Shown here one piece after another: positions 19,905 to 31,726 of a stretch of DNA of 64,000 bases; positions within the stretch are counted from its first letter, which is position 1, and each line of letters opens with the position of its first letter. The stretch lies in contig CACPCD010000001.1 in NCBI GenBank assembly GCA_902632315.1, positions 1 through 64,000 of the forward strand, in the 5' to 3' direction. This DNA is from an uncultured Pelagibacteraceae bacterium (GTDB lineage: Bacteria > Pseudomonadota > Alphaproteobacteria > Pelagibacterales > Pelagibacteraceae). Under the pieces are notes generated by a model. The model did not search any database and had not been told where the DNA came from. It saw only the letters and a program-made list of their open reading frames with translations. Both the position numbers and the translations under genes were made by a program.

Positions 19905-19923
19905 GCGATTGATAATCATTATC
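19905..19923. promoter_or_regulatory. Fur-box-like site 1
   Basis: GCGATTGATAATCATTATC: 16/19 match to GATAATGATAATCATTATC by hand alignment. Confidence 0.7.
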
Positions 19924-19967: not shown

Positions 19968-20996
19968 ATGAGAAAAATATCATTATTAGCATTGATTGCG
20001 TCTTTATTTGTATCGAGTATTGCGATTGCAGCTGAAGTAAACGTATTTAATGCAAGGCACTATAAAGCCGATGGAGAACTTTATTCTAAGTTTACAAATA
20101 TGACAGGAATTAAAGTTAATCTTATTAACGGTAAATCAGGTGCATTAGAAAAAAGAATCATCAGTGAAGGAGCGGACTCTTCCGCTGATCTATACATCAC
20201 AGCAGATGCTGGAAGATGTGGTGCTATGGATGCAAAAGGTACACTTCAAGGTGGTTTAACATCTGCAGCAATTAAAGATGCTGTTCCAAAAAGCTTTAGA
20301 ACAAGTAAGTGGGTTGGAATCGCTAAAAGAGCTAGAATAATTTATTATTCACCTGAAAGAGTAACGGGTGCAGAATTATCTGGAATGACTTATGAAGGTT
20401 TAGCTGATCCAAAATGGAAAGGCAGATTAGTAATTAGAAAATCTAGTAACATCTATAATAAATCTCTTGTAGCATCATTGATTAAAAACAATGGAAAAGC
20501 TGCAACAGCTAAGTGGGCTGAAGGAGTTGTTTCTAACATGGCAAGAACACCAACTGGTAACGATAGAGCTCAGATTATGGCAGTAGCAGCTGGTGAAGCT
20601 GACATTGCTGTAGCTAACACTTATTACTTAGCTCTTATGTTGTCTGGCAAAAAAGGAGCTGAACAACAAGCGGCAGCTAAGAAAGTTAAAGCTTTCTTCC
20701 CTAATCAAAACGATAGAGGAACGCATATGAATGTTAGTTGTGCAGCTTTAGTAAAAGGTGCGCCAAACAAAGATAATGCTATCAAACTTGTTGAGTTTTT
20801 ATTAACTCCAGAATCTCAAGAGCACTTTACTAATAATACTTTTGAGTTTCCAATGATTGATGGTGTTTCACCAAGTCCATTAGTTGTAAATAACTTAGGA
20901 TTAGATTTCAAACAAGATATGAAAACTAAACTAGCTTCTTATGGAAAAAATCAAGCTGCTGCAGTAGAAGTAATGACAGCTGCTGGATGGAAGTAA
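19968..20996 (+). CDS. Fe(3+) ABC transporter substrate-binding protein (FbpA/FutA-like)
   Basis: Signal peptide; EVNVFNARHYKADGELYSKFTNMTGIKVNLINGKSGALEKRI; preceded by Fur-like boxes. Confidence 0.9.
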   Translation: MRKISLLALIASLFVSSIAIAAEVNVFNARHYKADGELYSKFTNMTGIKVNLINGKSGALEKRIISEGADSSADLYITADAGRCGAMDAKGTLQGGLTSAAIKDAVPKSFRTSKWVGIAKRARIIYYSPERVTGAELSGMTYEGLADPKWKGRLVIRKSSNIYNKSLVASLIKNNGKAATAKWAEGVVSNMARTPTGNDRAQIMAVAAGEADIAVANTYYLALMLSGKKGAEQQAAAKKVKAFFPNQNDRGTHMNVSCAALVKGAPNKDNAIKLVEFLLTPESQEHFTNNTFEFPMIDGVSPSPLVVNNLGLDFKQDMKTKLASYGKNQAAAVEVMTAAGWK

Positions 20997-20998
20997 GT

Positions 20999-21169
20999 GT
21001 GAAAGAAAAAAAAAAATTTATTTCTGATGTTGATTTAAATAAATCTTCAAAGGCATGTTCCCCATGTAATCTTGAAGTAGAAAGAATCAATAAAAGAATA
21101 AATAAAAGAAAACTTGAAGAAATTAAATCTGAGGAAGTTCCGCATCTCCTTAAGGTATTTAATTTTTGA
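20999..21169 (+). CDS. Small CxxC protein in iron-transport locus
   Basis: VKEKKKFISDVDLNKSSKACSPCNLEVERINKRINKRKLEEIKSEEVPHLLKVFNF; GTG just after the binding-protein stop. Confidence 0.45.
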   Translation: MKEKKKFISDVDLNKSSKACSPCNLEVERINKRINKRKLEEIKSEEVPHLLKVFNF

Positions 21170-21184
21170 TTTTTCTTAAACTTT

Positions 21185-21295
21185 GTGTCCATCATGGATG
21201 GGGATTTGTGGTGGACACACTCAACTGGAATTTATTTTCCTCTGTTGAAGGAGTGTTCACTGTGATCAAGTTGTCTCCTTAATTATATTGGACAC
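21185..21295 (+). ncRNA. Candidate structured RNA / 5' leader between binding-protein and permease genes
   Basis: Nested complementary segments: GTGTCC(21185)/GGACAC(21290), GGGGA(21200)/TCTCC(21274), TTTG/CAAG, ACACTC(21217)/GAGTGT(21251), GGAA/TTCC; competing GGACAC at 21213. Confidence 0.5.
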
Positions 21296-21419
21296 TCTTT
21301 GAACAGAATAAAATAAATAGATAATCCCATACAAAGTCGAAATTCTTATATAAGTGTTTTAAATAAAATTTGTTAGAGTAATTTCTATTAAAAAGTGAAA
21401 ATTGTTATATAAAACAATT

Positions 21420-23045
21420 ATGATTAGAAATTTAAACTTTTGGTTTTTTTCATCATTTATAATTTCATTAGTAGTTATAATTCCAATAGTAACGGTGTTT
21501 TCTAGTTTCTTTGAAAATACATCTAATTATTTTGAAATTTTAAAAAATACTTTTTTATTTGAGTATACTTTTAATTCATTTGTTTTGTTAATAAGTGTTT
21601 TAATGTTAACTTTTATAATAGGCACTTCCTCTGCTTACTTAGTTTCATTTTACAAATTTCCATTAAGTAATTTTTTTAAATGGGCACTCATACTTTCCTT
21701 TGCAGTACCACCATATATTTACGCGTATTCTTTGACTGCTTTTTTTGAAAATTACGGAACAGCATATACAATTTTAAAAAATTTATTTGGTGAAGGAAAT
21801 TATAATCAGCACATACCGAAATTTGATGGCATGTTTGGTAGCATACTCTCTATTTCTTTCTCATTATTTGGATACGTATACATATTAACAAGAGCATCAT
21901 TCTTATATCAATCTCAAAATTTTATTGACTTAGGAAAAAATCTTGGGTTCTCAAATTTTAGATCATTTTATTCAATAGTATTACCTGGAGCAAGACCTGC
22001 AATAGTAGCTGGATTATCCTTGGTAGCCATGGAAACATTGGCTGAATTTGGAGCTGTTGATTTTTTTTCAATAAATACACTTACGACAGGAATTTATAAT
22101 TCGTGGATTGCTTTTGATGATTTAGCGTTTGCTAATCAGTTATCTTTCTTTCTTTTGTTATTTATTTTTGCATTATTTGTTTTAGAAAACTTATCTAGAA
22201 AAAAAGCAAAGTATCATTTTAATTCAAGAGGTGGGTTCAAGCAAAAAGAAAAAATTAGACTTACAAAAAGCAAATCTTTTTTAGCCTTTGGATTTTGCTT
22301 TTTTATTTTTTTTATGAGTTTTTTATTTCCATTATGCCAAATGTTTTATTGGACAATAAAATTCCCAGAAAATTTATTTGATTTAAACATATTTGATCTT
22401 TTTCTAAATACTGTTTATTTGGTGGTTTTATCTAGCTTTGCTTTAATCGTATTTTCCTTAATATCTAATTATGGAAACAGGGTTTCTAACAATAAAGTTT
22501 TAAATTTAATGTCGACTTTATCAATTTCTGGATATGCAATCCCTGGTGTAATTCTTGCTATAGCTTTTATAACCTTTGTTGTATGGATTGATGAAAGCAT
22601 GATTAAGAACATGGGTTTATTGTCTATTAAAAAAATATTTATAGGATCAATTTTTGGGTTAGTGATAGTTTACTTTGTAAGATTTTACTCTTTAGCTTTT
22701 AATGGAATAAAATCAGGATATGAAAAAATAAATATTTATGTTGATGAGAGTGCGTATCTTTTAGGATATTCAAAAAGAAAAACTTTCATGAATATTCATG
22801 TTCCTTTTTTAAGAAACTCGCTTTTATTTGTGGGCATTTTAGTTTCATTGGAAATAATCAGAGAGCTGCCAATAGCATTAATTTTAAGACCCTTTAATTT
22901 TGAAACTTTTGCGACTACAGCTTATATTTCCGCATCTGAAGATTTATTAGAGGCTGCGGCTGTTCCCTCGTTATTTTTGATTTTAATTGCTACAATATTT
23001 ATTATGATTACATCAAAATATATTTTAAGAGATACAAATGAGTAA
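21420..23045 (+). CDS. Iron(III) ABC transporter permease (FbpB-like, two fused permease domains)
   Basis: Many TM segments, EAA-like loops (ARPAIVAGLSLVAMETLAEFGAVDFF); ATG at 21420 preferred to the listed TTG at 21402. Confidence 0.88.
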   Translation: MIRNLNFWFFSSFIISLVVIIPIVTVFSSFFENTSNYFEILKNTFLFEYTFNSFVLLISVLMLTFIIGTSSAYLVSFYKFPLSNFFKWALILSFAVPPYIYAYSLTAFFENYGTAYTILKNLFGEGNYNQHIPKFDGMFGSILSISFSLFGYVYILTRASFLYQSQNFIDLGKNLGFSNFRSFYSIVLPGARPAIVAGLSLVAMETLAEFGAVDFFSINTLTTGIYNSWIAFDDLAFANQLSFFLLLFIFALFVLENLSRKKAKYHFNSRGGFKQKEKIRLTKSKSFLAFGFCFFIFFMSFLFPLCQMFYWTIKFPENLFDLNIFDLFLNTVYLVVLSSFALIVFSLISNYGNRVSNNKVLNLMSTLSISGYAIPGVILAIAFITFVVWIDESMIKNMGLLSIKKIFIGSIFGLVIVYFVRFYSLAFNGIKSGYEKINIYVDESAYLLGYSKRKTFMNIHVPFLRNSLLFVGILVSLEIIRELPIALILRPFNFETFATTAYISASEDLLEAAAVPSLFLILIATIFIMITSKYILRDTNE

Positions 23046-24096
23046 AAATTTTTTTGAAATAAATAATGTCACATTTTCAATAGGAGGTAAGAATAAGGTA
23101 AATGATGTAAATATTTCTATAGCAAATGAAGGGGATGTTATTTGTATTTTAGGTCCCTCTGGAATTGGAAAAACTACAATGCTACGAACAATTGCTGGTC
23201 TTGAAAAAATAAATAAAGGTGAAATAATTTTAAAAGATAAAGTGATATCTTCAAGTAAAATTCACATTGAACCAGAAAAAAGAAATATAGCGTTGTCTTT
23301 CCAAGAAAATTCTTTATTTCCTCATTATACGGTTGATAAGAATATTCACCTCGGCATAAAAAAAAATTCTCCAAGTAATAAAAATATCAATGCCAAGGAA
23401 ATAATTAAGATTTTAAATATTGAAAGTATTTTAAACAAATATCCACATCAAATTAGTGCAGGAGAAGCTCAAAGAGCATCATTAGCAAGATCTCTTATCG
23501 CTCAACCAGATCTTTTGTTGCTTGACGAACCTCTTTCAAATGTTGATCAAAGTTTTAAGGAAGATATTCAAGTATCTTTAAAACAATTATTAAATAAAAA
23601 TAAGATTTCAACAATTGTGGTAACGCATGATTCATATGAGGCATTTTATTTGGGTAGTAAATGTGCGCTTGTTTTAAATAACGAGGTTAAACAATTTGAT
23701 GATCCTTATAATGTTTATCATTTTCCAAATTCGGTTGAGGTTGTTAATTTTTTAAATAGAGGAATCTTAATTCCAGCGAAGGTAACAGGTGGAGACTCGC
23801 TTGAAAATGATGATCTAGGATTAATTAAAGGCAACTTTATTAAACATTACCCAACCGGGTCTAAAGTTCAATTATTACTTCAACCAGAAGATCTAGAGCA
23901 TGACGATGATAGCAATTTAAAACTTGAGGTAGTTGATAGAAAATTCAGGGGAACAAATTTTATTTATACTTTAAAAACGCCAAGCAATAGGCTTATACCA
24001 GTTGCAGTTCATACTCACCATTGGGAGCAACATGAAGTAAATGATAAATTTGGCATTAAAAGACCTATTCAACTTGAACATATAGTTTGCTTTTAA
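23038..24096 (+). CDS. Iron(III) ABC transporter ATP-binding protein (FbpC-like)
   Basis: LGPSGIGKTTMLRTIAGL, ISAGEAQRASLARSL, LLLDEPLSNVD. Confidence 0.9.
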   Translation: MSKNFFEINNVTFSIGGKNKVNDVNISIANEGDVICILGPSGIGKTTMLRTIAGLEKINKGEIILKDKVISSSKIHIEPEKRNIALSFQENSLFPHYTVDKNIHLGIKKNSPSNKNINAKEIIKILNIESILNKYPHQISAGEAQRASLARSLIAQPDLLLLDEPLSNVDQSFKEDIQVSLKQLLNKNKISTIVVTHDSYEAFYLGSKCALVLNNEVKQFDDPYNVYHFPNSVEVVNFLNRGILIPAKVTGGDSLENDDLGLIKGNFIKHYPTGSKVQLLLQPEDLEHDDDSNLKLEVVDRKFRGTNFIYTLKTPSNRLIPVAVHTHHWEQHEVNDKFGIKRPIQLEHIVCF

Positions 24097-28302: not shown

Positions 28303-28325
28303 ATATTTACCTAATTTTGAGTTTT

Positions 28326-28404
28326 GAGAGGGTCGCTCTTTCAGCCTATAAACTAAAAGAGCTCCTCTAATAAGCCTCATAGGCAATTAAATCCAAATGG
28401 ATTT
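28326..28404. ncRNA. Candidate structured RNA element with possible pseudoknot
   Basis: AGAGG/GCTCTTT (28327-28341) pairs AAAGAGC/CCTCT (28356-28368); loop GCCTAT (28344-28349) is complementary to ATAGGC (28379-28384); followed by AAATCC-aaat-GGATTT. Confidence 0.45.
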
Positions 28405-28514
28405 TAATTTTAAATTGATTTTTTTGATTGTTTTTTCTCAGCTAAGTATCAGGTGGTGATAAATTTAACATGCTACCTCCTTATTAAGTAGGCTAATAAT
28501 TTTTTATTAATTTA

Positions 28515-28555
28515 TCAATAAATTTGTTTTCATTTATTTAAAATAAATTTATTGA
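28515..28555. repeat. 11-bp perfect inverted repeat
   Basis: TCAATAAATTT (28515-28525) ... AAATTTATTGA (28545-28555). Confidence 0.6.
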
Positions 28556-28624
28556 ATACAACCTGATCAAGTTGTAGATTCCAGCAACTTTATTAAATTC
28601 TCCTTTTAATAGAAATTGTTCAAA

Positions 28625-31707: not shown

Positions 31708-31726
31708 GTTATTGATTATCATTCTC
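31708..31726. promoter_or_regulatory. Fur-box-like site in hydrolase/iscR divergent spacer (approximate bounds)
   Basis: Minus strand GAGAATGATAATCAATAAC, 16/19 to GATAATGATAATCATTATC by hand. Confidence 0.55.

Follow-up and report, generated by a model that had tools for sequence, protein, structure and literature searches.

A conserved predicted RNA hairpin between the binding-protein and permease genes of an iron-transporter operon in Pelagibacteraceae

We analyzed a 64,000-nucleotide stretch of DNA from an uncultured Pelagibacteraceae bacterium (contig CACPCD010000001.1, positions 1 to 64,000; hereafter the window), in which the genes for an iron(III)-type ABC transporter are arranged in the order binding protein, permease, and ATPase (Table 1). 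This is the sfuC-sfuB-sfuA arrangement of Candidatus Pelagibacter ubique, and the binding-protein gene, with permease and ATPase downstream, appears to correspond to the sfuC locus of that species (PMC2864753). An exact Fur-type palindrome precedes the binding-protein gene, and Fur-type box-like sequences are retained 5′ of this gene in relatives. The distance from the binding-protein stop codon to the permease ATG is 423 bp, short ORF included; the spacer of roughly 230 bp reported in a preliminary description of this DNA, made from the sequence alone, is obtained only if the short ORF is counted as coding. Elsewhere in the window, overlapping partial Fur-type matches (GTTATTGATTATCATTCTC, positions 31708-31726, + strand) possibly mark a second Fur-regulated promoter.

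Table 1. Features of the iron-transporter operon and its spacer, with positions in the window.
Feature	Position	Strand	Remarks
Fur-type box, exact palindrome GATAATCATTATC	19911..19923	+	44 bp 5′ of the binding-protein gene
Iron(III)-type ABC transporter periplasmic binding protein (SfuC/FbpA-like)	19968..20996	+	ORF; Pfam SBP_bac_8/6
Short ORF, conserved, 56-60 aa, previously unlisted	20999..21169 (GTG start 20999, in-frame ATG 20987)	+	ORF list, relatives
UUCCGCA motif within the short ORF, predicted to lie in a small hairpin's loop	21138..21144	+	
Hairpin 1	21184..21219	+	16 bp, loop GGGG, -20.8 kcal/mol; window copy of the conserved intercistronic hairpin
Hairpin 2	21241..21307	+	-29.4 kcal/mol; orphaned here, leader of a peroxiredoxin gene in relatives
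Loop of hairpin 2, C-rich anti-Shine-Dalgarno motif UGUCUCCUU	21272..21280	+	Invariant in 10/10 aligned sequences
Putative deletion scar	21375..21430	+	Aligns collinearly with L042 across the 3′ end of the peroxiredoxin gene and the permease leader
ABC transporter permease (SfuB-like)	21420..23045 (ATG 21420)	+	ORF; Pfam BPD_transp_1; tblastn of relatives
ABC transporter ATP-binding protein (SfuA-like)	23038..24096	+	ORF; Pfam ABC_tran

The short ORF, which has 56 codons in the window and is followed immediately past its stop by the hairpin region, was located by tblastn at the majority of the 70 loci compared first. Its predicted product is a CxxC small protein with the core C-S-P-C...E-C-K-K-I-N-x-R-I-N..., for which Pfam and NCBIfam returned no convincing family. 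Of 93 distinct ORF 3′ halves, 92 use CCG as the Pro codon within UUCCGCA, and CCG accounts for 5.2% of the Pro codons in the genome. Several codons of the ORF (TCC, GAG, ATC, AAG, and CCG) are unusual for the genome yet conserved, as would be expected if constraint also acted on the RNA; because codons other than CCG (TCC, ATC, AAG) are among them, the constraint may extend beyond UUCCGCA.

The + strand between 21170 and 21310 folds with a minimum free energy (MFE) of -55.5 kcal/mol, against -30.4 ± 3.8 kcal/mol for 200 dinucleotide shuffles (z = -6.6; 0/200 shuffles as good), and the - strand of the spacer folds less well (z = -3.3). The spacer is a structured RNA of the + strand made of two adjacent stacked hairpins and no rod (Table 1), which bears out the structured RNA in cis that the preliminary description had placed between the iron-binding-protein and permease genes. 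In stretches totaling 762 kb of the 917 kb of this genome, hairpin 2 (extended to 21230-21318) was the most stable intergenic hairpin, and hairpin 1 ranked among the top 15. The same description had proposed a nested rod closed by GTGTCC (21185) and GGACAC (21290), with mutually exclusive alternative pairings. The complementary segments that it listed are all present, no more than a few bases from the positions given, but their arrangement was misread: the forced nested rod reaches -32.3 kcal/mol and its forced outer helix alone -39.8 kcal/mol, so that the rod costs about 16 kcal/mol or more relative to the MFE and has a pairing probability of about 5e-10. The pairings offered as alternatives are those of the dominant fold, with GTGTCC (21185) and GGACAC (21213) forming the stem of hairpin 1, and GAGTGT (21251) and ACACTC (21292) pairing within hairpin 2. 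No either/or switch is visible, because hairpins 1 and 2 do not compete. The outer helix of the rod would join two separate hairpins, both of which keep their own stems in the 13 loci carrying hairpin 2.

Sampling 201 genomes of the genus gave us 90 downstream regions as homologous spacers, and 88 of these could be anchored. In all 88 anchored Pelagibacteraceae loci a hairpin with the outer stem is present shortly after the short ORF and before the next gene. The outer 9-bp stem occurs as 54 distinct arm pairs, in which 473 of 486 positions are paired (shuffled mean 389, maximum 406 in 2000 shuffles), with 47 G-U against 2 A-C combinations. A parsimony count, made on a FastTree phylogeny of the flanking genes and leaving out the imperfectly anchored L042, L092, and L110, returned about 59 inferred double compensatory changes, 50 single compatible changes, and 8 breaks. 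A second collection, consisting of Pelagibacteraceae single-cell genomes and MAGs, contributed 59 loci with new spacer sequence and gave a similar picture (26 distinct arm pairs, 226/234 positions paired, 25 G-U against 1 A-C). Since a G-U pair on the + strand corresponds to an A-C mismatch on the other strand, the large excess of G-U points to selection on the sense RNA and rules out a DNA-level inverted repeat. A repeat or mobile element is likewise ruled out, the hairpin being single-copy in this genome. Judged by these comparisons, hairpin 1 represents a conserved RNA element of the sense strand, with a stem that compensatory changes maintain as its sequence diverges. Both stem and loop differ freely from locus to locus, and only short C-rich loop motifs recur.

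Hairpin 2 has a narrower distribution. It is present at the corresponding position in only 12 relatives, most of which retain a peroxiredoxin gene after it. In G003, G180, and G235 a redoxin/peroxiredoxin ORF comes next and the permease after it, the ORF matching NCBIfam peroxiredoxin and AhpC models significantly, at scores below the model cut-offs; L210, L224, L242, L249, L250, L256, L259, L261, and L272 carry copies with or without the peroxiredoxin gene. An alignment of 10 hairpin 2 sequences has a mean column identity of 92%. The scar upstream of the permease matches L042 over 17 nt exactly and, continuing along one diagonal, with 92% identity over 24 nt. On this sequence evidence, hairpin 2 and the leader hairpin of the relatives' peroxiredoxin gene are homologous, the gene itself is absent from the window, and the simplest reading is that the gene was deleted and its leader hairpin left behind. 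The presence of the peroxiredoxin ORF in some relatives and its absence in others make the slot a site of recurrent gene gain and loss within the iron operon. Relatives with a peroxiredoxin/redoxin ORF in this slot, 3′ of the short ORF and 5′ of the permease, include L042, L044, L045, L068, L071-L073, L075, L080, L085, L087, L103, L116-L118, L224, L242, L250, L259, and L261. The lack of covariation, or absence from relatives, that the preliminary description had named as evidence against a structured RNA is thus not seen for hairpin 1, and applies by half to hairpin 2 with its restricted distribution.

The hairpin loops often carry one of two C-rich motifs, CUCCUU or UUACCC, complementary to Shine-Dalgarno (SD) sequences, and predicted pairing between the loop and the permease ribosome-binding site reaches 7-12 bp in some clades, but not in the window, where the loops pair poorly with their own permease start (-3.8 kcal/mol). 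CUCCUU-type loops were found at 21 of 36 loci with the permease SD AAGGCGGA, and UUACCC or UUAUCC loops at 12 of 12 loci with the SD GGGUA; 0 of the 21 CUCCUU-type loops face a GGGUA-type SD. Nearly all loci with the GGGUA SD allow 7-9 bp of loop-SD pairing, and the hairpin 2 loop of L256 (UUGUCUCCUUAA) is a perfect 12-nt complement of its permease SD region (UUAAGGAGACAA). Matched loop/permease-SD duplexes had -6.6 kcal/mol against -5.4 ± 0.24 kcal/mol for permuted ones (0/2000), and the loop alone gave 28/2000, both permutations ignoring shared ancestry. Such covering of the SD is not universal, because a C-rich loop is missing from 15 of the 36 loci with a GCGGA-type SD and, at 13 loci, is present without a complementary SD. 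Given these one-partner loci, the slight complementarity in the window, and permutations blind to ancestry, we infer SD covering by the loop only as a clade-dependent function. RsaE and FsrA, C-rich-loop sRNAs of Firmicutes, are similar in having C-rich loops able to pair with SD sequences, and in their iron context. The SAR11 loop differs from them in showing no enrichment of long complementary sites that would indicate trans targets: at 780 gene starts, the longest runs complementary to the hairpin 2 loop were no commoner than those for flank-shuffled loops.

The UUCCGCA motif of the short ORF has a potential partner at the head of the operon. Where the ORF has UCCGCA, the leader of the binding-protein gene contains UGCGGA in 29 of 45 loci, against 0 of 25 loci where the ORF lacks it; among loci with new spacer sequence, the figures are 35 of 52 with the motif and 1 of 7 without, the single exception (L212, ORF UUUCGCA) keeping the helix through a G-U pair. 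The next base co-varies, with the His codon CAC accompanied by leader GUGCGGA in four loci and CAU by AUGCGGA in most. In the clade with UUUACCC loops, GGGUAAA is present in both the binding-protein leader and the permease SD, with 7-9 bp of pairing. This co-occurrence and the co-varying base are the trace expected from a spacer segment that pairs with the starts of its operon. They are consistent, as is the near-invariant CCG in a genome that seldom uses it, with the short-ORF/hairpin segment being the operon's own base-pairing RNA (processed or within the mRNA), with a loop motif that would pair with the binding-protein 5′ leader and the permease SD in an autoregulation resembling that of OppZ and CarZ. 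We regard this as possible but rather improbable. It stays a rival and not a conclusion because about a third of the loci, the window included, keep UUCCGCA without an operon-leader partner, because single leader mismatches are uncompensated in L032, L033, L204, and L231, and because the other unusual codons of the short ORF suggest a broader constraint. Two further points against it are that the co-occurrence of the motifs is partly one swap between clades and that Hfq (PF17209) was found in 0 of 59 SAR11 genomes of the genus, in a search that matched the control genomes (completeness cut-off 88%; the genome of the window is 83% complete). Among loci having both, permutation of UUCCGCA against the permease SD gave no support, since the motif hardly varies, and a search for UUCCGCA targets elsewhere in this genome returned none that was convincing. 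It is unlikely, in our estimate, that short ORF and hairpin form a dual-function segment, encoding a small protein and serving as a base-pairing RNA, which would pair with its own 5′ leader and the permease start without Hfq, and whose motif would have been swapped wholesale between clades (UGCGGA/UCCGCA against GGGUAAA/UUUACCC) with pairing kept. OppZ and CarZ are autoregulatory sRNAs derived from 3′ UTRs (Hoyos et al. 2020, PMC7398697). The likeness lies in a segment of operon RNA (for OppZ, a transporter operon) complementary to translation starts of its own operon; theirs, however, is the operon 3′ end and depends on RNase E processing, whereas the SAR11 segment is internal and occurs in a genus for which the search returned no Hfq.

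The same complementary motifs could be protein sites. In that case UUCCGCA/UGCGGAA and GGGUAAA/UUUACCC would be bound, as DNA or RNA, in both orientations, and the hairpin would be merely a stable 3′ end. The near-invariance of the ORF motif even at loci without a complementary leader fits this better than it fits pure pairing, and the leader sites lie just 3′ of the Fur-type boxes. The copies in ORF and spacer are, however, always in the leader-complementary orientation and in predicted hairpin loops, and two motif pairs in two clades would require two proteins, so that we consider protein sites distinctly unlikely. Still less weight can be given to a plain intrinsic terminator separating two transcription units: stable G-C containing stems do stand at a gene end, and U tracts follow the stem in a few relatives (L081, L082), but most loci have no U tract after the hairpin, no promoter above chance was found 5′ of the permease, and in Ca. 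P. ubique induction of sfuC is accompanied by that of sfuB (PMC2864753). A riboswitch or transcription attenuator built on alternative, mutually exclusive helices, which the preliminary description had put forward first, has complementary segments on paper; with a rod that is essentially unpopulated, stems that are kept separate in relatives, freely varying loops and stems in place of a conserved aptamer-like core, and no U-tract terminator at either full stem, it is hardly credible. A free-standing 6S-type sRNA, also raised there, is just as implausible. A long stable hairpin in a streamlined genome would suit it, but there are two short separate hairpins and not the single rod of about 160-200 nt with a central bubble that is typical of 6S RNA, no 6S match appeared at any listed threshold, the hairpin lies between co-directional operon genes, and promoter matches are no more frequent than by chance. 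The Rfam 15 scan returned no match at gathering scores and, in permissive E-value mode, only sub-threshold matches at chance level.

We have concluded, with fair but not high confidence, that the locus carries an intercistronic post-transcriptional element that lowers permease relative to binding protein, the mechanism being reconstructed as follows. The conserved hairpin would act post-transcriptionally as a boundary within the iron operon mRNA. It may shield the 3′ end of an abundant segment comprising the binding protein and the short ORF from exonucleases and, in clades whose permease SD is complementary, its C-rich loop may cover the permease ribosome-binding site; far more binding protein than permease would then be made. 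For the window, only the boundary or stability role can be claimed, because its loops are barely complementary to the permease start; what the window has is a stable same-strand hairpin between an upstream and a downstream cistron, as is characteristic of intercistronic stabilizing hairpins. A processing or stability element that makes binding protein exceed permease was among the options of the preliminary description, and is the most plausible of them. In ABC-transporter operons, intercistronic hairpins of the malE-malF REP type stabilize mRNA. The SAR11 element is like them in preceding the permease and directly following the binding-protein segment, and in the excess of binding protein that would result; it differs in the short ORF in between, in its single non-repetitive stem (one copy in the genome) in place of a dispersed repeat, and in the anti-SD loop motifs of many SAR11 relatives.

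In iron-limited Ca. P. ubique, mRNA increased 16-fold for sfuC, 10-fold for sfuB, and 5-fold for sfuA, and among the three proteins an increase was observed for SfuC alone (27-fold; Smith et al. 2010, PMC2864753). The decreasing mRNA gradient from sfuC to sfuA and the rise of SfuC protein alone are as an intercistronic boundary predicts, although missing SfuB peptides may be technical, membrane proteins being described by the authors as hard to recover. The same study reports that SAR11 protein levels are largely decoupled from mRNA under iron stress, with only SfuC up in both, and proposes post-transcriptional control, speculating on mRNA secondary structure via CspE/CspL; the passages considered name no element. 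SAR11 bacteria rank among Earth's most abundant cells and often face iron limitation; few regulators are known in the group, and no Hfq within the genomes searched. A hairpin at the SfuC/permease boundary with dozens of inferred compensatory changes would offer a concrete, testable post-transcriptional site for this decoupling of mRNA and protein.

SAR11 spacers have been mined before, with candidates at rpsB, rpsL, and ffh and a methionine-biosynthesis motif (Meyer et al. 2009, PMC2704228). These resemble the present element in being cis-acting hairpins in the few long spacers of SAR11, that of ffh also being a single covarying hairpin. They belong to other genes, the words 'iron' and 'permease' do not occur in PMC2704228, and the iron-operon element has no Rfam counterpart. 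A full-text literature search returned no title or abstract that describes the present element.

Two further observations concern other loci. A KatG catalase-peroxidase gene (G000 C4:12498-14735; relatives L284-L313) is present in 99 of the 201 sampled genomes, some copies having internal stops, and its leaders often contain CATGGGGAA, which is complementary to TTCCCCATG of the short ORF; co-variation was unsupported. As a trans target, katG gave the best hit (9 bp) and was rejected, the match not being conserved in katG leaders and the complementarity between katG leaders and short ORFs being no better than permuted. The window contains another long structured spacer on the - strand (28303-28623), which has no Rfam match; its segment 28303-28520 folds with z = -4.6, and the spacer holds a nine-codon ORF (MLNLSPPDT) with AAGGAGG 5′ of it.
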